Source of the DNA: Thermoplasmatales archaeon
GTDB lineage: Archaea > Thermoplasmatota > Thermoplasmata > Methanomassiliicoccales > Methanomethylophilaceae
Length of the DNA: 34,837 nucleotides
Assembly: GCA_012515075.1 (NCBI GenBank)
Contig: JAAYZC010000025.1
Location: 1 to 34,837, forward strand
Reading direction: 5' to 3'
Part shown: positions 1 to 7,839 of the stretch, one piece after another
Layout: each line of letters starts with the position of its first letter
How positions within the stretch are numbered: the first letter of the stretch is position 1
The notes under the pieces: model-generated
Seen by the model: the letters and a program-made list of their open reading frames with translations, nothing else
What the model was told of the DNA's origin: nothing
Database searches by the model: none
Position numbers and translations under genes: made by a program

Positions 1-241
1 CGTCGGCCTTCGTGTTCCAACCGATGAACGAATGGTGCTCGTATTGGAATATGTTCCCGTCGATGGCTGTTTCGTTGGAGTAGACCGCCTTGTCCTCGCC
101 TTGGGAGGTCTGACCCCCATTGCCGTAGTACGTGACGCCGACGGTTTCCGATTGGTTCAGGGATATGGCCACGGCCACACCGGCTACCGCCAGCACAGCC
201 ACCATGGCAATCGCTATGATCGTGTTCTTCGATATGTTCAT
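1..241 (-). CDS. Secreted or anchored protein with InlB-type repeat, 5' end only
   Basis: The first 80 codons of a gene that runs off the left edge. Residues 7-27 form a hydrophobic segment after a short lysine-containing N-terminus, which reads as a signal peptide or N-terminal anchor. From about residue 36 the chain matches the start of a Listeria-Bacteroides (InlB B-type) repeat: a V-T-Y-Y-G-N-G-G opening and, about 30 residues later, the F-x-G-W-N-T-K-A-D motif. Such beta-grasp repeats occur in cell-surface and adhesin-like proteins, which are often numerous in gut-associated Methanomassiliicoccales. The ATG at 241 has no clear Shine-Dalgarno but a good TATA box 36 nt upstream. A surface role is inferred; the total length and number of repeats cannot be seen. 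Confidence 0.72.
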   Translation of the reverse strand, partial: MNISKNTIIAIAMVAVLAVAGVAVAISLNQSETVGVTYYGNGGQTSQGEDKAVYSNETAIDGNIFQYEHHSFIGWNTKAD

Positions 242-272
242 AGGTCAATCAGGGCGGGAGACCCGGTTTGTG

Positions 273-280
273 TATTTATA
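273..280 (-). promoter_or_regulatory. TATA box for the truncated secreted-protein gene
   Basis: Read on the minus strand this is TATAAATA, centred about 36 nt before the start codon at 241. That spacing predicts a leader of roughly 10 nt. The same TATA-to-start distance recurs at several other first genes here. Confidence 0.55.
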
Positions 281-359
281 CATTGACTGAAATGAAAAAT
301 AGACGGCAGAGTAGGGTTCGCACCGCGCCCGCCGCGGGCGAACTGGAACGGGTCCCCGC

Positions 360-935
360 TCAGAACTCCTTCTCACTGCCCTCCGCCAGACCCAGGAAGA
401 AATCCGCGCCCTCCTCCGGACCTCTGGCTATAAGCGTGTCCCCTGCCTTTATGATGGTGTCCTTGCCGGGCCCGTAGATGTACATGTTGTTGCGCTTTAT
501 CGCGATAACGAACATGCCGCAGTGGGTGCTCAGACGCATCTCCCCCAGGCTTTTCTCCGCCATTATCGAGTCATCCGAGACCTTGGCCATCTCTATGGTG
601 ACCTCGGACTCCTGTATGCTCATCTGTATGACAGGGTGCTGGCCCAGGCCTCTCAGGACCACGTCCGCTATCGATGCGGCCGCGTCCGCTATATCCTCTA
701 TGGCCATCTGGAGCCTCAGTATCACCAGGAACCTTGCTATCTCCTCCGGATTCTCCTTGCCCAGAGACACGGTCATGTCCTGTATCTGCCCGCTGAGCTC
801 ATCCATCCTCTTCTCGAGGAACACCACCTCCTCGGCTATCTCGGAGTTGTTGTAGAGTAAAGATGAGTAGGCGAGATCGATCATGAACTCCGAGGTGTCC
901 TTCAGGTCGAGCAGCATGGATTCTAGACGGTTCAA
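360..935 (-). CDS. PhoU-like / RCK_C (TrkA-C) regulatory protein, paralogue 2
   Basis: A 191-residue soluble protein. Residues 1-100 are helical and PhoU-like, with a D-L-A-Y-S-S-L motif near residue 20. Residues 110-182 form an RCK_C (TrkA-C) domain, seen in the K-S-L-G-E-M-R-L and I-K-A-G-D-T-L-I-A-R-G signatures. RCK_C domains bind small ligands or ions and gate cation channels and transporters. The start is taken as TTG at 935, which overlaps the stop of the upstream paralogue as TTGA, has a GAGGTGAGG ribosome site upstream, and keeps the alignment with that paralogue. An ATG at 917 (185 residues) is the alternative. The divergent neighbour is an MgtE/SLC41-type transporter, so a role in controlling it is inferred. 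There is no membrane segment, so it is not itself a channel. Confidence 0.8.
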   Translation of the reverse strand: MNRLESMLLDLKDTSEFMIDLAYSSLLYNNSEIAEEVVFLEKRMDELSGQIQDMTVSLGKENPEEIARFLVILRLQMAIEDIADAAASIADVVLRGLGQHPVIQMSIQESEVTIEMAKVSDDSIMAEKSLGEMRLSTHCGMFVIAIKRNNMYIYGPGKDTIIKAGDTLIARGPEEGADFFLGLAEGSEKEF

Positions 936-1591
936 AGGTCCTCACCTCTGGCGTATTCCTCGTCATTATCGTTCTCCGGGAACTCCCATGGAAGCTTGCC
1001 GGTCGTGAACTCGAGGAGATGCTCGAAGCCGTCCTGGGTTCCGCGCACGATGATGTCGTCCCCGGTGCGCAGCTTGAGATCGTCCTCGGGATCGTAGACC
1101 CAGCCGTGGCGGTTCCTTACGGCTATTATCTTGACTCCCGTGCACGCCTCCACGGCCAGATCCTCTATCGTGTTCCCGGCCATGTCGGAGGGCGGCATGA
1201 TCTTGGTCATCCGTATCTTCTCCTCTGACTCGTTAAGCATGTTGCTTATGAACGGACGCTTCTCCAGCGGTACGCCCAGAAGCTTGACTATGTCGCCGGC
1301 CGCCTCCGATATGCGGTCTGCGGCGGATGCCACCTGCAGTATCCCGGAAAGCTGCTTGGCATCCTCCCTGGTGCGGGCGGCCAGAAGCAGCTTTATGCGT
1401 ATAGCGTACTTCAGGTCGTCTATCTCCTCCTCCAGCTCCCGCACCTTCTCGGCCATGTCCTGGCTGTTGTACATGAGGGATGCGTAAGCGAGATCGACCA
1501 CGACCTCGGATATGTCCTTCATCTCCGTGAGCAGCTCCCGGACCGTCAGCTCTATGCGGTCCAGATTCACATGCTCCTCGAAGTCGCTCAA
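932..1591 (-). CDS. PhoU-like / RCK_C (TrkA-C) regulatory protein, paralogue 1
   Basis: About 219 residues with the same architecture as the following gene: a PhoU-like helical domain (motif D-L-A-Y-A-S-L-M-Y-N in the first 45 residues) and a C-terminal RCK_C domain (L-R-T-G-D-D-I-I-V-R-G). It ends in an acidic tail. A GTG at 1600 lies inside a perfect GGAGGTG ribosome-binding sequence, so the in-frame TTG at 1591, about 6 nt after that site, is the more likely start. The stop overlaps the start of the second paralogue by 4 nt, so the two are co-translated and may form a heteromer. Function by family: cytosolic sensing and gating of a cation transporter. The ion is unknown; Mg2+ or another divalent cation is inferred from the transporter next door. 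Confidence 0.8.
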   Translation of the reverse strand: MSDFEEHVNLDRIELTVRELLTEMKDISEVVVDLAYASLMYNSQDMAEKVRELEEEIDDLKYAIRIKLLLAARTREDAKQLSGILQVASAADRISEAAGDIVKLLGVPLEKRPFISNMLNESEEKIRMTKIMPPSDMAGNTIEDLAVEACTGVKIIAVRNRHGWVYDPEDDLKLRTGDDIIVRGTQDGFEHLLEFTTGKLPWEFPENDNDEEYARGEDL

Positions 1592-1814
1592 AAAAAGCAC
1601 CTCCCGATGACGGTGGCGCCCCTGCTATTGCTCCCTTCCGGGTCCTCTGAGTTGATCGACAATTCGGTCACCTTAACATCGCGTATATCGCTTCGGTCCC
1701 CTATGTATGGGTGCGGTTCGTTTTTAATGTTTTTGCGGGAGGTGTCGGCGCTAATAAATAGAATCTTGACCTTAACGGCCTTAGATATGTGATGTCGTGA
1801 GGTGAGCGTTTTTA
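1592..1814. promoter_or_regulatory. Divergent intergenic region between RCK_C genes and mgtE-like gene
   Basis: This 223-nt region must hold promoters for both directions. For the transporter, AT-rich candidates lie at 1751-1761 (CTAATAAATAG) and 1781-1789 (TTAGATATG). No single box stands out for the minus-strand genes. A GGTGA ribosome site precedes the transporter ATG at about 1800-1805. No riboswitch-like element such as a Mg2+ sensor was recognised, and no small gene is convincing. Confidence 0.4.
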
Positions 1815-3041
1815 ATGGGGTCCACGAAAACTTCCAGGGGGTTCTTCGCCCGCAACAGGTCGGTGTTCGTGCTAGGACTCTCCGCCCTCATCATAGCCGC
1901 CACCGCCGACCTCTTCGCGGGGCTTTTCCTGAAGAGCATGGAGGCGTACATCCTTGCGGTCCCCGGGATGATGGTGCTGATATACTCGGCCATCGGGATG
2001 AGGGGCAACATATACGGCGCGATGGGCAGCCGCCTTGGAACCTCGATGCACATGGGTACCTTCCGGATGTCCTTCGCGAAGGGGGGCATACTGAGGAACA
2101 ACATGGAGGCGACCCTCGCCCTGACCCTCGTGCTTTCGATATCCATGGGGATAATCGGCTGGGTCATCGTGCGGTTCTTCTTCCAGGGCGACATAGATCC
2201 CCTGGGCTTCATATTCATATCGACCGCCGGAGGCCTACTCGCGGGCCTGGTGGTTATGGTCTTCAACATAATAATAGCCTTCGAGGGGTACAAGCACGAC
2301 TGGGACGTCGACAACATAACCGCCCCGCTCATAGCCGCGGTGGGAGACATTGTGACGGTTCCGATGATCTTCCTGTCCACGTGGCTTTTCTTACACTGGG
2401 ACCCTTTGCTTACCGACGCCTGCTGCCTGGTCCTGATAGCCTTCACCTTCGTGGTGATCGCCAGGATAATAAGGCGCAAGAAGAGCCGCAAGGGACGCAT
2501 GGATGAGTCCAAGAGGATAGTCGTCCAATCGATCCCGGTGCTCATAGTATGCCTTTTCTTCGAGATCGGCGCAGGCATAGTCATACAGGGGCAGGAGGCG
2601 AGGCTGCTGGAGTTCGCGGTTCTGATGATCATGATGCCCGCCTTCCTCAACGAGGGCAACGCCCTCTCGGGGATGCTCACATCCCGGCTGTCCTCCATGC
2701 TGCACCTGGGTACGCTCAGGGTGCAGCCCCTTCCACCCAGGGAGGCTTACGAGAACTTCGGCATAATGTACATAATGGCATTCGTGACCTTCGTCATAAT
2801 AGGTGTCGCGGCGTACATGGTGTCCGGATCGGACAACGTGAGCTTCCTGGCCACGATGTTCATAGTGGTGGCCGCGGGCATGGTCACCACAACCGTGCTG
2901 AACTTCCTGTCGTACTACGTGGCCATATTAGCCGTGCGCTTCAACCTTGATCCTGACGACCACAGCATACCTGTCACCTCGTCCATCATGGACCTGGCGG
3001 GGTCCATGATAATGATCGCCGTGGTGCTCGCAGTCCTTTGA
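1815..3041 (+). CDS. Two-domain MgtE/SLC41-type divalent cation transporter
   Basis: A 408-residue membrane protein built from two MgtE-type transmembrane domains. The first half carries R-G-N-I-Y-G-A-M-G-S-R-L at 63-74 and M-H-M-G-T at 78-82; the second carries E-G-N-A-L-S-G-M-L-T-S-R-L at 280-292 and L-H-L-G-T at 296-300. Each half ends in an Asp- and Pro-containing pore helix (D166-N-I-T-A-P ... G-D and D381-D-H-S-I-P ... D393). Bacterial MgtE has one such domain and works as a dimer, with cytosolic N and CBS sensor domains; both sensors are missing here. Tandem domains in one chain are the layout of eukaryotic SLC41 Mg2+ transporters. A basic loop at 217-232 joins the halves. Regulation by the divergent PhoU-RCK_C proteins is inferred. 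Mg2+ is the likeliest substrate but is not proven. Confidence 0.85.
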   Translation: MGSTKTSRGFFARNRSVFVLGLSALIIAATADLFAGLFLKSMEAYILAVPGMMVLIYSAIGMRGNIYGAMGSRLGTSMHMGTFRMSFAKGGILRNNMEATLALTLVLSISMGIIGWVIVRFFFQGDIDPLGFIFISTAGGLLAGLVVMVFNIIIAFEGYKHDWDVDNITAPLIAAVGDIVTVPMIFLSTWLFLHWDPLLTDACCLVLIAFTFVVIARIIRRKKSRKGRMDESKRIVVQSIPVLIVCLFFEIGAGIVIQGQEARLLEFAVLMIMMPAFLNEGNALSGMLTSRLSSMLHLGTLRVQPLPPREAYENFGIMYIMAFVTFVIIGVAAYMVSGSDNVSFLATMFIVVAAGMVTTTVLNFLSYYVAILAVRFNLDPDDHSIPVTSSIMDLAGSMIMIAVVLAVL

Positions 3042-3045
3042 AAAC

Positions 3046-3057
3046 ATATAATATACG
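3046..3057 (+). promoter_or_regulatory. TATA box upstream of purP
   Basis: A TATAATATA-type element just after the transporter stop, centred about 37 nt before the purP ATG, followed by a GAGGAAGAG ribosome site. It implies purP has its own promoter with a short leader. Confidence 0.5.
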
Positions 3058-3087
3058 AGAACCGTTAATCCCCCCAGAGGAAGAGAG

Positions 3088-4245
3088 ATGATCGACAGAG
3101 AGGAGGTTCTGGGGAACCTTGAGAGATACGACCTGTCAAAGGCGAAGATAGGGGTTGTGGCATCGCATTCCGCCCTTGACACCTGCGACGGGGCCGTTTC
3201 CGAGGGTTTCCGCACAGTTGCGATATGCCAGCAGGGAAGGGAGAGCACATTCTCCAGATACTTCAGGACCCAGAGGGACGACGCAGGAAACGTCGTTCGC
3301 GGTGTCGTGGACGAGCCCATGGTACTGGACCGCTTCAGCAGCATACTCCGGACAGAGAACCAGAATAGGCTCATGGACGATAACGTCATCTTCGTTCCCA
3401 ACCGCTCTTTCGTGTCATACTGCGGCATAGACGCTGTGGAGAACGATTTCCGTGTGCCCATGTTCGGAAGCAGGAACCTCCTGAGGTCCGAGGAGAGGGG
3501 CGACGAGAAGGACTACTACTGGATTCTCGAGAAGGCGGGACTTCCGTACCCCAAGAAGGTCGAGAGGCCGGAGGACATCGACGGTCTGACCATAATAAAG
3601 GTTCACCACAAGGTCAAGAAGCTGGAGAGGGGTTTCTTCACGGCCAAGGACCACGACCAGTTCCTGGAGAAGTCCGCTGAGCTGATAAGGCAGGGCGTGA
3701 TCGAGGAGAACTTCCTGGAGCACGCCAGGATGGAGCAGTACATCATAGGCCCCGTCTTCAACCTGGATTTCTTCCACTCCCCCCTCGAGGAGAAGGGCGA
3801 GAAGACAGAGCTCCTGGGCGTTGACTGGAGGTTCGAGACCTCCCTGGACGGCTACTGCAGGTTGCCCGGGAAGCAGCAGATGGAGCTCGAGGATGACGGG
3901 ATAATACCCGAATACACCGTTTGCGGGCACAACACCGCCACTCTGAGGGAGTCACTTCTGGACAAGGCCTTCGAGATGGCCGAGAAGTACGTGGCGGCAG
4001 CGAAGAAGCACTACGACCCCGGCATAATAGGCCCGTTCTGCCTTCAGACCTGCGTGGACAAGGACCTCAATTTCTACATATACGACGTGGCCCCCCGCAT
4101 AGGCGGAGGGACGAACGTACACATGGCCGTCGGCCATCCCTACGGCAATTCCCTCTGGAGGCGCGAGATGAGCACCGGGAGGAGGGTCTCCATGGAGATA
4201 AGGAGGGCCATCGAACAAGAGCGCGTTGAGGAGATCATAACCTGA
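3088..4245 (+). CDS. purP: FAICAR synthetase (formate-dependent, PurP)
   Basis: A 385-residue ATP-grasp enzyme that makes FAICAR from AICAR, formate and ATP in archaeal purine synthesis, replacing the folate-dependent PurH transformylase step. The match to the PurP family holds over the whole length: an N-terminal G-V-V-A-S-H-S-A-L-D nucleotide/AICAR-binding region near residue 25, S-Y-C-G-I-D-A-V-E-N-D-F and P-M-F-G-S-R in the middle, I-G-P-V-F-N-L-D-F-F, L-L-G-V-D-W-R-F-E-T and the C-terminal I-G-P-F-C-L-Q-T and A-P-R-I-G-G-G-T-N. The length is slightly above the usual ~360. The ATG at 3088 follows a purine-rich ribosome site. Archaeal genomes can hold several PurP paralogues, so another copy elsewhere is possible. 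Confidence 0.92.
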   Translation: MIDREEVLGNLERYDLSKAKIGVVASHSALDTCDGAVSEGFRTVAICQQGRESTFSRYFRTQRDDAGNVVRGVVDEPMVLDRFSSILRTENQNRLMDDNVIFVPNRSFVSYCGIDAVENDFRVPMFGSRNLLRSEERGDEKDYYWILEKAGLPYPKKVERPEDIDGLTIIKVHHKVKKLERGFFTAKDHDQFLEKSAELIRQGVIEENFLEHARMEQYIIGPVFNLDFFHSPLEEKGEKTELLGVDWRFETSLDGYCRLPGKQQMELEDDGIIPEYTVCGHNTATLRESLLDKAFEMAEKYVAAAKKHYDPGIIGPFCLQTCVDKDLNFYIYDVAPRIGGGTNVHMAVGHPYGNSLWRREMSTGRRVSMEIRRAIEQERVEEIIT

Positions 4246-4265
4246 ACGCACTGGGAGACGACAGA

Positions 4266-4898
4266 ATGTCATCATACACGAAATTCATGACGGTCGCGGC
4301 GATACTCGCCATAGTGCTGGTCTCCGCGACGGCAATGGCGCCCTCGGGCGATGCGGATGTGGAGATAACGTCCGACGCCAGGGTCGTTTCTGGCTTCGAC
4401 AACATGACCGCAGGCACAATCTCCGTCAGCTACACCAACACCGGGAGCGACCCGGTGACCGTGGAATTCTACGCGACCTACACATCCGGAGGGGACAGAT
4501 TGGCCGAGGGGACGATCAGCATACCCGCCGGCGAGACGGTCGAGGGGACGCTTACCTTCCTGATAAACTCGGCCGGAGCCCACTATATAACCGTATTCGC
4601 CTCGGCCACCAATCCCGACGGCAGCGAGGCTCTGTTCCCGCATGGCGACAGGACCTCCCTCCTTGTAGACGTAGGTTCATCCGCATGGTCCCAGTGGACA
4701 ACGTATCTGGCGATAGTGGTGGTCGTGCTGCTGATCGTTATAGGCGTCTGGCTCAGAATGCGCAACGCCCCCAAGGTCGAGGCTGACACCACCTTCACCG
4801 AGATGGAGGAGAAGAAGAGCATGTACAGACCCGAAGTTCCTGCGCAGACCAAGACCACCGACAAGCAGAAGTACGTCAGCAAGAGGAAGAAGGGCTGA
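4266..4898 (+). CDS. Signal peptide / beta-sandwich / membrane-anchored protein, unknown function
   Basis: A 210-residue protein of unknown role. Residues 7-24 are a hydrophobic signal segment. Residues 45-118 look like an extracellular immunoglobulin-like (CARDB or DUF11-like) beta-sandwich, with alternating hydrophobic strands, an S-Y-T-N-T-G-S-D-P-V-T-V-E-F strand pair and A-G-E-T-V-E-G-T-L-T-F. Residues 146-164 form a strong transmembrane helix, followed by a 45-residue charged cytosolic tail ending K-R-K-K-G. It starts 20 nt after purP with a GGGAG ribosome site, so it is probably co-transcribed, although no functional link to purines is visible. Topology: outside domain, one C-terminal anchor, positive tail inside. 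Confidence 0.75.
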   Translation: MSSYTKFMTVAAILAIVLVSATAMAPSGDADVEITSDARVVSGFDNMTAGTISVSYTNTGSDPVTVEFYATYTSGGDRLAEGTISIPAGETVEGTLTFLINSAGAHYITVFASATNPDGSEALFPHGDRTSLLVDVGSSAWSQWTTYLAIVVVVLLIVIGVWLRMRNAPKVEADTTFTEMEEKKSMYRPEVPAQTKTTDKQKYVSKRKKG

Positions 4899-4944
4899 TG
4901 GCCTTCTCAAACCCCTTACATCCTTTTACACATTCAGAGGGAAC

Positions 4945-5649
4945 ATGAGGTTCATTGACCTGGGATCGGTCGATCCCGCGTACGGGCTGGCGGCCGACAG
5001 GGCGATATTCGAATCGCGCTCCCGCGGCACGACCGGGGACACTTTGCACATATACACCCGGGACCGCCCTACGGTGTCAGTGGGGAGATTCGGAGACATA
5101 GAGGAGACCGTCCACACGGGGTATGCCCGGGACAGGGGAATCGCCGTCTTGAGAAGGATGAGCGGCGGGAGCAGCATCTACACCGACCGGGCACAGATGA
5201 TATACGGCGTCACGGTGGGAAGATCCGAATACAACGACAGGGAGGGCTCCTTCGCGATGATATGCGAAGCCCTGGTCGCATCTCTGGAGCACCTCGGGGT
5301 AGCCGCGGAGCACAAGCCCCCCAACGACGTCCTGGCGGACGGCAGGAAGATCTCCGGGTCCGCCCAGTACCGCGACAGGGAGGTCGTCGTGCAGCATGGG
5401 ACCCTGATATTGGATCTGGATCCGGCGAACGTCATGGACAAGGTTCTGAGGAACCCGAAGATACGCTCTTACAGCGGCATGACATCCGTCAGGGAACTCA
5501 TCGGAGAGATCCCGGACCGCCCCACGCTGGCTTTCGCCCTTATGTGCGGATTCTCGGAGACCCTGGGGGAATCCGTGGACTTCGGGGAGCTGACCCCCTG
5601 GGAGAAGGAGAGGATACTGGAGCTCACAGCTTCAGTTTCGGATCCGTAA
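4945..5649 (+). CDS. lplA: Lipoate-protein ligase A, catalytic (N-terminal type) domain protein
   Basis: A 234-residue member of the BPL/LplA/LipB fold, which activates lipoate with ATP and attaches it to a lysine of an acceptor protein such as GcvH or E2. Visible motifs: R70-R-M-S-G-G-S-S-I-Y-T-D81 (family form RRxSGGGAVYHD), N127-D-V-L-A-D-G-R-K135-I-S-G-S-A-Q with the key lysine, and H151-G-T-L. The small C-terminal LplA domain is absent. In Thermoplasma the ligase is split into LplA and a separate accessory LplB, and the size here fits that pattern. No lplB or acceptor gene is in the window. An AGAGGG ribosome site precedes the ATG. The 3' end overlaps the convergent acetyltransferase gene by 26 nt. 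Octanoyltransferase or amidotransferase activity cannot be ruled out. Confidence 0.82.
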   Translation: MRFIDLGSVDPAYGLAADRAIFESRSRGTTGDTLHIYTRDRPTVSVGRFGDIEETVHTGYARDRGIAVLRRMSGGSSIYTDRAQMIYGVTVGRSEYNDREGSFAMICEALVASLEHLGVAAEHKPPNDVLADGRKISGSAQYRDREVVVQHGTLILDLDPANVMDKVLRNPKIRSYSGMTSVRELIGEIPDRPTLAFALMCGFSETLGESVDFGELTPWEKERILELTASVSDP

Positions 5650-6121
5650 GGTCCATCAGCGCGACCTCGCGCCTGTCCATGAAGAAACCGATCTTCTTGT
5701 GCAGAAGTATGGATGGGACATTGTCCGGCTGTATGGCGCTGTGGATGACGGTCGCACCCTTATCCTTCGCGGCCCTGGCCAACTCCCGTAGGAGCTTGTA
5801 TCCGATGGCGTTGCGCCTGAAATACGGGTGCACGCCCATGTTCTCGATCCAGACCAGATTCTCCGTGTCGTATACGTGGTGTAGCATTTGGGCGAAGATG
5901 AATCCCACTATCTCGTCATCCTCTGCCGCGACGAAGCTCAGGCCGCTTTCGATGTAGGCCATGAATGACTTCCTGCTGCTGGCGCCGAGGTTCTCCCTCC
6001 AATCGGCGGGCAGATCCTCCCAGCGGTTCTCCAGGATCACCGAGAAATACTCCTTTATGCAGGAGATCTCCAGGTCGCGGACCTTCACAAGGTCCTTGAG
6101 CTTCATCTGGCGGATCTCCAT
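5624..6121 (-). CDS. GNAT-family N-acetyltransferase (RimI-like)
   Basis: A 165-residue GNAT protein. The acetyl-CoA site is seen in I-E-N-M-G-V-H-P-Y-F-R-R-N-A-I-G-Y-K-L-L (motif A, R/Q-x-x-G-x-G/A type), and the C-terminal N-V-P-S-I-L-L-H-K-K-I-G-F is motif B. The ATG at 6121 overlaps the argS stop as TGATG and follows a GGAGGAG ribosome site inside argS, so the longer upstream in-frame reading is rejected. Family members such as RimI acetylate protein N-termini, often of ribosomal proteins. The operon with aRF1 and argS makes a translation-related substrate plausible, but the substrate cannot be read from sequence. Confidence 0.8.
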   Translation of the reverse strand: MEIRQMKLKDLVKVRDLEISCIKEYFSVILENRWEDLPADWRENLGASSRKSFMAYIESGLSFVAAEDDEIVGFIFAQMLHHVYDTENLVWIENMGVHPYFRRNAIGYKLLRELARAAKDKGATVIHSAIQPDNVPSILLHKKIGFFMDRREVALMDLTDPKLKL

Positions 6122-7839
6122 CACATCTCCTCCGGTGCACCCATGCCCAGACAGTCCAGAACGTTCCTGAGAACGATCATAGAGCACTCCACAAGAGTCA
6201 GACGGGCATCCCTCGATGGGCCCGCGGTGAGTACGGGAACAGCGGCGTAGAACTGGTTGAAGGCAGACGCCAGCTCGTGTCCGTAAGCCGGCAGCAGGTG
6301 CACGCGCTTCTCCTGACCGGCGGTCTCGATCACGATCTCGAACCTGGAGAGGACCTTGGCCAGCCTTATCTCGTACTCATCGGTGAGTTTGGAAGGGTCG
6401 GTGTCGTGCGCATAGGCTCCCGCCTTCCTTATCATGCTGCAGGCCCGGGCGTGGGCGTACTGCAGGAAAGGCCCGCTGTTGCCGTCGAAGTTCAGAGCAT
6501 CCTCCCACCGGAAGACCAGCTGCTTCTCCGGCTGAACCCTTACGATGTTGTACCTTATCGCCCCTATCCCGATGACCTTCGCGATCTCCCTCATGCGATC
6601 CTCGGGCAGGTCCGAGCGCCTGGAGGCAATCTCCCCATAGGCCCTGGAGACCGCCTCGTCGATGAGGTCGTCCAGGTATACGACCACGCCCTTCCTGGTG
6701 GACATCTTGCCTTCGGGAAGGGACACGAACGAATAGAACATCGGTTCCGGCATCCTCTCCTTCCCCAGTATACTGAGGGCTGAGCAGAGCTGGGTGCTGC
6801 CCAGTTTCTGGTCCTCGCCGAGTACGTCGATAACGCGATCCGCGCGGGTGAACTTGTCCAGATGGTATGCCAGGTCGCGGGTCGTGTACAGGGTCGTGCC
6901 GTCGGACCTGGTGAATGTGAACTTTGTGTTCTTCCCCTGTATCCCGAAGTCCTTGAGGTCCAGGAACCAGGCACCGTCCTCGGACTGCCCTGCGTATTCG
7001 GACCCCTTCAGCCTGTCAACCACGGATCTGGCCGATCCGTCCGCTATGAAACGGGATTCCCATGTGTAGATGTCCAGACTCACGCCTATGTCGGCCAAGG
7101 TCTCCTTCAGTCCGTCGATCATGACGCCCGCGGTCCTCCTGACCGCTTCTATGACCTCGGCGTCGCCCGCCTCGAACCTCCTGAGCATCTCCGAGATCTG
7201 CTCCCGGACCTCGGGGTCCTCCTCCATCATCTTGTTCGCGACGCGGTAGAAGGCGACAAGCCTGTGATCGGTCTTGTCCCTCTCCCCGTGATCGACGGAA
7301 TCCGCCGGGATGTTCTCCACCCCCCATGTGAGTATGACCACCTGCTTGCCGACATCGTTGACGTAGTACTCGGTGGTGACCCGGTTCCCGCACCTGCGCA
7401 GACATCTGGCCAATGTGTCCCCGATTATCGGGTTCCTCGCCCTCCCCACATGTATGGGCCCGGTAGGATTGGTGGAGGTGTGCTCCACGTTGACCCGCAG
7501 GCCGGTGTCGGGGAGGGAGCCGTAGCCGTCCCTCTCCCTGAGTATCTCCTCCAGGGTCCCCTGCATCAGCCTCTGCCCGTCCATCCTGAAGTTCAGGTAT
7601 CCGTTCAGGGCGGTGACCTCGGAGATCAAACCCGAAGGGGTCATCGAGGCCGCCAGGGCCTCTGCGATGTCCTTCGGCGGCATCCTCATGGCCTTGGACA
7701 TGGTGAAACACGGAACAGCCAGGTCTGCCGCGCCCGTTGGAGGGACCTCGGTTGTGAACGCCGCATCCGATCCCATTCCCGCCAGGGCCCCGGACACTGC
7801 CGAGACCACTTCCTCTTTGAAAGCGTCTACGATACCCAT
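6121..7839 (-). CDS. argS: Arginyl-tRNA synthetase
   Basis: A 572-residue class I synthetase that charges tRNA-Arg. Residues 1-100 match the N-terminal Add1 domain that contacts the tRNA D-loop. The HIGH motif appears as H130-V-G-R within the diagnostic N-V-E-H-T-S-T-N-P-T-G-P-I-H-V-G-R context. The KMSKS loop is K-M-S-T-R-K-G near residue 377. The C-terminal helical anticodon-binding (DALR) domain ends the chain. The ATG at 7839, 4 nt after the aRF1 stop, is preferred over an upstream in-frame start inside aRF1. It sits in an aRF1-argS-GNAT operon. Length and motifs are normal. Confidence 0.95.
   Translation of the reverse strand: MGIVDAFKEEVVSAVSGALAGMGSDAAFTTEVPPTGAADLAVPCFTMSKAMRMPPKDIAEALAASMTPSGLISEVTALNGYLNFRMDGQRLMQGTLEEILRERDGYGSLPDTGLRVNVEHTSTNPTGPIHVGRARNPIIGDTLARCLRRCGNRVTTEYYVNDVGKQVVILTWGVENIPADSVDHGERDKTDHRLVAFYRVANKMMEEDPEVREQISEMLRRFEAGDAEVIEAVRRTAGVMIDGLKETLADIGVSLDIYTWESRFIADGSARSVVDRLKGSEYAGQSEDGAWFLDLKDFGIQGKNTKFTFTRSDGTTLYTTRDLAYHLDKFTRADRVIDVLGEDQKLGSTQLCSALSILGKERMPEPMFYSFVSLPEGKMSTRKGVVVYLDDLIDEAVSRAYGEIASRRSDLPEDRMREIAKVIGIGAIRYNIVRVQPEKQLVFRWEDALNFDGNSGPFLQYAHARACSMIRKAGAYAHDTDPSKLTDEYEIRLAKVLSRFEIVIETAGQEKRVHLLPAYGHELASAFNQFYAAVPVLTAGPSRDARLTLVECSMIVLRNVLDCLGMGAPEEM

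Follow-up and report, generated by a model that had tools for sequence, protein, structure and literature searches.

A two-domain archaeal MgtE/SLC41-type transporter and its genomic partnership with PhoU-RCK_C proteins, candidate regulators acting in trans

Introduction

Among the known systems closest to the transporter considered here is the bacterial MgtE channel of T. thermophilus (2zy9, 4u9l), a homodimer that carries its N and CBS sensors in the same chain as the pore; as an excerpt of PMC8104411 describes, this cytosolic N/CBS part closes the pore at high Mg2+. Archaeal and animal members of the MgtE/SLC41 group lack CBS domains, and the relevant sections of a 2022 review state that they 'might be differently regulated' and that structures are lacking (PMC9276622). 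In those sections on SLC41 and two-domain MgtE proteins, no trans-acting PhoU-RCK_C partner is mentioned and the word 'PhoU' occurs 0 times. Here we describe a locus at positions 360 to 3,041 of a 34,837-nucleotide stretch of DNA from a Thermoplasmatales archaeon (assembly GCA_012515075.1, contig JAAYZC010000025.1, forward strand; the whole stretch is called the window below). It encodes a two-domain MgtE/SLC41-type transporter, T, and, divergent from it, two PhoU-RCK_C proteins, PR-alpha and PR-beta (together PR). T resembles the bacterial channel in its membrane-domain fold and its P(D/A)X4PX6D motif, and resembles animal SLC41 and archaeal two-domain MgtE proteins, as portrayed in the same part of the review, in its doubled motifs and the absence of CBS. 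In contrast to the bacterial homodimer, T is a two-domain chain without the N and CBS sensors, and PR is encoded separately.

Control of a membrane protein in trans by RCK proteins has precedents in the TrkH-TrkA, KtrB-KtrA and TM1088A/B gating rings, of which TM1088 is a two-subunit version according to excerpts of PMC4380455 and PMC6987127. These systems serve K+ transport, whereas PR goes with MgtE/SLC41, and TrkA and KtrA have RCK_N nucleotide domains where PR has PhoU. PR also differs from PhoU itself, in that the PhoU body is divided over two chains or two halves, each bearing an RCK_C domain. A relative of PR-alpha, PH0236, has a solved PhoU-RCK_C structure (1vct, 2bkn, 2bko, 2bkp), entered under titles that read 'putative potassium channel related protein' or 'unknown function' and name no transporter partner. 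The parts of the system are already known, with two-domain archaeal MgtE proteins in print and a PhoU-RCK_C structure in the PDB. The T and PR genes are not mentioned in the available portion of PMC8305020. Nor did we meet a description of their pairing among the titles and opening lines of abstracts of open-licence PMC articles. Database neighbourhood views for COG1824 and COG3273 may already display it.

Results and Discussion

We searched four genome sets for T and PR, 415 genomes in all, representing three archaeal phyla and one bacterial phylum; T was sought with a single sequence in set 1 and with a profile made from the set 1 relatives in sets 2 to 4. Both were found in 208 genomes and neither in 202, leaving three genomes with T only and two with PR only. 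The window's own phylum (set 1, 116 genomes) has both in 48 genomes and neither in 64. Its exceptions are three genomes with T only (G012, G041 and G097, which are 64, 72 and 87% complete) and one with PR only (G055, 80%). Among the 80 genomes of set 2, the phylum of the Methanosarcinales metagenome-assembled genome (MAG) G117, both occur in 60, neither in 19, PR only in one (G139) and T only in none. The genomes with T and those with PR are identical in set 3, the phylum of the Methanobrevibacter MAG G119 (52 of 70 with both, 18 with neither), and in set 4, the phylum of Rubrobacter taiwanensis, G118 (48 of 149 with both, 101 with neither). Not counted as PR were the hits in G111 (set 1), G135 (set 2) and 12 genomes of set 4, the only ones in these genomes, which were partial, lay towards the RCK_C end and scored about 42 to 54 bits; in every counted genome the best PR match reached about 140 bits or higher. 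Presence and absence also switch jointly within the window's single family, six genomes of which have both and three neither. The initial annotation, made from the sequence of the window, had suspected that the layout might be more widespread in archaea and had proposed a search for co-occurrence. Such a search reveals near-exact joint presence and absence in four phyla, and the window proves to be one member of a widespread system. We are almost certain that T and PR are functional partners.

T and PR lie within about 3.5 kb of each other in 25 of the 48 set 1 genomes that have both. At 80 named loci found with T there are two PR genes in 62, one (single or tandem) in 11 and none in 7, counts that cover the DNA fetched, with several of these loci cut by contig ends. 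A tandem PR stands beside T on the same strand at 29 of 30 bacterial T loci, often with overlapping genes or a spacing of a few nucleotides. T and PR share a strand in sets 3 and 4; at window-type loci they are mostly divergent and sometimes convergent. Since adjacency is kept through these changes of orientation, a functional link is suggested, rather than merely inherited gene order. The neighbourhood is clearly conserved in related genomes, and its absence, which the annotation had named as grounds for abandoning the idea, can be set aside. No natural fusion of T to PR was seen; the long frames present at some of the loci are explained by wrong frames that stay open or by masked sequence. 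In G058, T and PR are separated by about 1.4 kb of other sequence.

Within the window, PR-alpha (932 to 1600, minus strand) is the first gene of the pair and PR-beta (360 to 935, minus strand) the second; the two share 4 nt, and T (1815 to 3041, plus strand) runs divergently from them beyond a gap of 214 nt. The PR starts, read as GTG and TTG, are tentative positions. This order, two overlapping genes for soluble proteins divergent from a transporter, is as first annotated, as is the domain content of all three proteins, which open reading frames (ORFs) and Pfam matches confirm: a double MgtE protein lacking N and CBS, with PhoU and RCK_C in both neighbours. The three-gene layout is repeated in dozens of related loci, and the arrangement is therefore not a chance one. 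The divergent intergenic region (1601 to 1814) contained no convincing operator but weak repeats only, and a promoter and terminator scan of it gave results at chance level. No Rfam match that would indicate an RNA switch near the genes was found in window positions 1 to 6500.

T is a protein of 408 aa that matches the MgtE family PF01769 (E 3e-30; 105.5 bits against a cut-off of 27.6) in two stretches, domain 1 at 1989 to 2375 (59.6 bits) and domain 2 at 2634 to 3020 (67.1 bits), the only PF01769 matches in the source genome (a 988 kb MAG, 78.6% complete). No other Pfam domain, N and CBS included, was found in T, which with two MgtE domains in a single chain and no CBS is of the SLC41 type; on TIGR00400, the bacterial MgtE equivalog, it scores 16.4 bits, far under the cut-off of 232.75. 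An excerpt of PMC9276622 gives P(D/A)X4PX6D as a motif of MgtE and SLC41. This pore motif is exact in the second half of T (P380-D381...P386...D393), and in the first half V replaces the first P (V165-D166...P171...D178). D166, P171, D178, P380, D381, P386 and D393 are invariant in 68 sequences. An AF2 model built with the 68 sequences (pLDDT 94.2, pTM 0.91) has membrane helices arranged 5 + 1 + 5, the single one being a linker between the two MgtE domains (residues 197 to 220; 2403 to 2474, plus strand). A sequence search of solved structures found no relative of T. With a second structure aligner, MgtE membrane domains take the top five rows (Z 13.2 to 15.8), among them 4u9l (Z 15.8, 3.6 A over 177) and 2zy9 (Z 14.1). 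The two halves of T are thus modelled as an MgtE-like intramolecular pseudo-dimer.

At other loci (L123 to L135, L176 to L181 and others), many from Methanosarcinales-type genomes and some from the window's phylum, the transporter is divided into two genes of about 185 to 229 aa, one per MgtE half, often with an overlap of a few nucleotides and adjoining PR. We compared 24 such loci, a number that includes overlapping ones from the same genome. The N half stops near window residue 195 to 196 in 23 of the 24, the C half begins near residue 198 to 207, and the missing part is only the linker helix 197 to 220, as would be expected if this helix serves only to orient the second half like the first. 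A different arrangement occurs at L262 (G375), where two full-length T genes stand in tandem (143 to 1375 and about 1477 to 2703) with one tandem PR behind them.

PR-alpha (222 aa) matches PhoU (E 2e-10; 1283 to 1531) and TrkA_C, the RCK_C domain (E 2.6e-10; 1007 to 1201), and PR-beta (191 aa) likewise matches PhoU (E 7e-11; 660 to 911) and TrkA_C (E 2.5e-11; 405 to 587), all on the minus strand. The RCK_C matches of the two proteins, at 40.5 and 43.8 bits, exceed the cut-off of 27. Pfam gave no match in PR to TrkA_N, the RCK_N nucleotide-binding domain, whose place PhoU occupies, and the scores on TIGR02135, the PhoU phosphate regulator equivalog, are 31.4 and 22.1 bits against a cut-off of 130.25. 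Among solved structures, PR-alpha has a relative over its full length in 1vct, the P. horikoshii protein PH0236 (E 9.7e-41). PR-alpha proteins of the window's order (L003, L006, L009, L050, L068; about 932 to 1000 in the window) end in a short acidic C-terminal tail, which PR-beta does not have.

A maximum-likelihood tree of 94 PR units contains a single alpha/beta branch with support 100/97. Its alpha side gathers the first genes of pairs, the single PR of Methanobrevibacter's phylum and, from archaeal and bacterial tandem proteins alike, the N-terminal halves; on its beta side are the second genes of pairs and the C-terminal halves of tandem proteins. The tandem fusions, found in Methanosarcinales-type archaea and Rubrobacter-type bacteria, run alpha-beta. 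The single supported branch therefore indicates that alpha and beta arose once and that the fusions follow operon order. A root near the single PR of Methanobrevibacter's phylum, and so a single copy first, is conceivable from the tree, as this PR sits near the alpha/beta branch. Two unusual copies were seen: G410:C97 holds a second, very divergent tandem PR (62 to 71 bits, one in-frame TAG) in addition to the normal one, and a PR-beta match at G058:C1:941567-942133 has an in-frame TAA and may be a decaying or frameshifted copy.

The fold of PR was examined in a model of a tandem alpha-beta protein from an ANME-2 archaeon (L101; pLDDT 87.5, pTM 0.86), in which the six-helix PhoU fold is found; the separate chains of the window are known from sequence. 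Structural alignment places 1vct on the alpha half (Z 19.4). Complete PhoU structures cover both PhoU halves, with Z 19.2 and 2.6 A over 195 residues for 4q25; the two halves together therefore match the six-helix PhoU body and would pair as in PhoU. That PR-alpha and PR-beta form a heteromer, as the initial annotation had supposed, is very likely given one ancient split, natural fusions and PhoU-like pairing in the model. Its description of PR as two separate proteins holds for the two-gene form; elsewhere there is one tandem gene or, in Methanobrevibacter's phylum, a single PR gene.

Taking these observations together, we think it reasonably probable that T serves as an archaeal divalent-cation transporter of the MgtE/SLC41 type and is regulated in trans by PhoU-RCK_C subunits dedicated to it, and that this is probably a transport system regulated as one unit, common to many archaea and some bacteria. 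T would move a divalent cation, most likely Mg2+, and would have lost, or never had, the N/CBS sensor of the bacterial MgtE chain, while PR-alpha and PR-beta would supply regulation as a dedicated heteromer. The two PhoU halves would make up a full PhoU-like helical body with the two RCK_C domains paired beside it. This heteromer would most likely dock on the cytosolic loops of T, predicted at residues of about 81 to 91, 161 to 165, 221 to 230, 299 to 308 and 375 to 380, on the face used by the CBS/plug part in MgtE. Ligand binding to the heteromer would then change transport, a plausible ligand being a divalent cation at the PhoU ExxxD motif or at RCK_C, and a separate PR protein would take over the pore-closing work of the MgtE N/CBS part. 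Control by direct contact between PR and T is, in our judgement, fairly likely.

PhoU proteins are known adaptors, as in phosphate signalling, and PR could instead be a PhoU-like signalling adaptor that reports the state of the transporter or of the metal to other parts of the cell, without gating T, with the co-occurrence reflecting a shared regulon. In the window's phylum, 23 of the 48 genomes that have both T and PR show no linkage between them, as such an adaptor would allow. However, near-exact co-occurrence with one transporter type in four phyla, the overlapping or closely spaced genes of bacteria, and a PR without any further domain all speak against it, and we consider an adaptor quite improbable.

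What T transports, and in which direction, can be approached through CorA, which in the window's family is present in 0 of 6 genomes with T and in 3 of 3 without. The trend is weaker across the phylum (116 genomes, with CorA matches under the curated cut-off in G002, G023 and G048 left out), where T and CorA occur together in 13 genomes, T only in 38, CorA only in 34 and neither in 31 (odds ratio 0.31, p 0.004). We hold Mg2+ to be the likely main substrate of T; an MgtE of Methanothermobacter has been predicted to be the Mg2+ importer, as a part of PMC3087415 has it. T might otherwise be an SLC41-like exchanger that exports Mg2+, or might move another divalent metal, with PR limiting the efflux or the flux of that metal. 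An excerpt of PMC9276622 reports Na+/Mg2+ exchange by human SLC41A1, and T shares the doubled SLC41 motifs and the absence of CBS. The mutual replacement of CorA and T in the window's family (6/6 versus 3/3) suggests rather a shared role in uptake, although few evolutionary events lie behind that argument. We regard the exchanger or other-metal reading as unlikely, if less so than the adaptor.

As to the ligand of PR, the ExxxD motif of PhoU binds metal clusters. Of 43 alpha units, 41 keep E32 and all keep D36; of 47 beta units, 46 keep E16 and 29 keep D20; and the four single PRs of set 3, which form a separate count, all have E and D. This conservation of sequence is no more than suggestive, and we propose a metal ion as the ligand of PR no more than tentatively. 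RCK_C domains also invite comparison with KtrA, KhtT and BusR, which sense cyclic di-adenosine monophosphate (c-di-AMP), and the RCK_C pair of PR might do likewise, making the transporter c-di-AMP-controlled. The RCK_C of the tandem model resembles the c-di-AMP-bound RCK_C of KhtT and BusR (Z about 13), and sequence comparison also matched 4xtt, which shows the RCK_C of KtrA together with c-di-AMP. Yet the diadenylate cyclase (DAC) domain PF02457 occurs in 0 of 12 sampled genomes of the window's and the sister family, nine of which have T and PR, and PR and DAC are unrelated across the 116 genomes (odds ratio 1.16, p 0.84). The D/R/N residue set of the KtrA/KtrC site, which we take to define c-di-AMP binding, is jointly present in 0 of 94 PR units. 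With neither a link to DAC nor this residue set, c-di-AMP is disfavoured and seems to us a very improbable ligand.

Several points weigh against regulation of T by a dedicated PR heteromer as we propose it. The Fisher p values ignore shared ancestry, there being no phylogeny correction in them. In the 23 of 48 set 1 genomes where T and PR are unlinked, they lie on the same contig but at least 31 kb apart in 4 and on different contigs in 19. The single-PR form occurs in all 52 genomes of Methanobrevibacter's phylum that have T, and the beta subunit is thus not always needed, while in beta units the motif Asp is replaced by Gly in 18 of 47. Foldseek, when given the T model, places MATE transporters above MgtE, with TM-scores <0.4. 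The replacement of CorA by T is incomplete phylum-wide (13 of 116 genomes with both, 31 of 116 with neither).

All 16 bacterial T rows fall in one clade beside archaeal ones in the T tree, and in the PR tree the bacterial tandem halves are placed among the set 2 archaeal ones. Both trees fit a single transfer of the whole T and PR module into bacteria, which may thus have received it once. It is possible, and we put it forward with some reserve, that this is a major archaeal Mg2+ transporter class that Rubrobacter-type bacteria acquired a single time, as an entire unit, and that is controlled by an obligatory trans-acting PhoU-RCK_C subunit reading cytosolic divalent cations. If so, it would be a second, CBS-independent solution to Mg2+ feedback on the MgtE/SLC41 pore, and PhoU domains would gain a direct metal-sensing role outside phosphate control. 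In any case, archaeal MgtE/SLC41 proteins gain a concrete, conserved candidate regulator that is open to purification, making the regulation question of the 2022 review testable. A role would also be suggested for the PH0236 family, structures of which came out in 2005-2006 with no function known, and T with PR offers structural biologists an SLC41-type pore in a small complex.

Elsewhere in the window, positions 3088 to 4245 encode a PurP-like protein (DUF1246 and DUF1297), a diverged relative that scores 320 bits against the formate-PRAICAR ligase cut-off of 556. Positions 6121 to 32784 are an ordinary core-gene region, with arginyl-, phenylalanyl- and W/Y-type tRNA synthetases, an eRF1-type release factor and a D-aminoacyl-tRNA deacylase, along with dihydroxy-acid dehydratase, SecY and ribosomal proteins L30 and L3.

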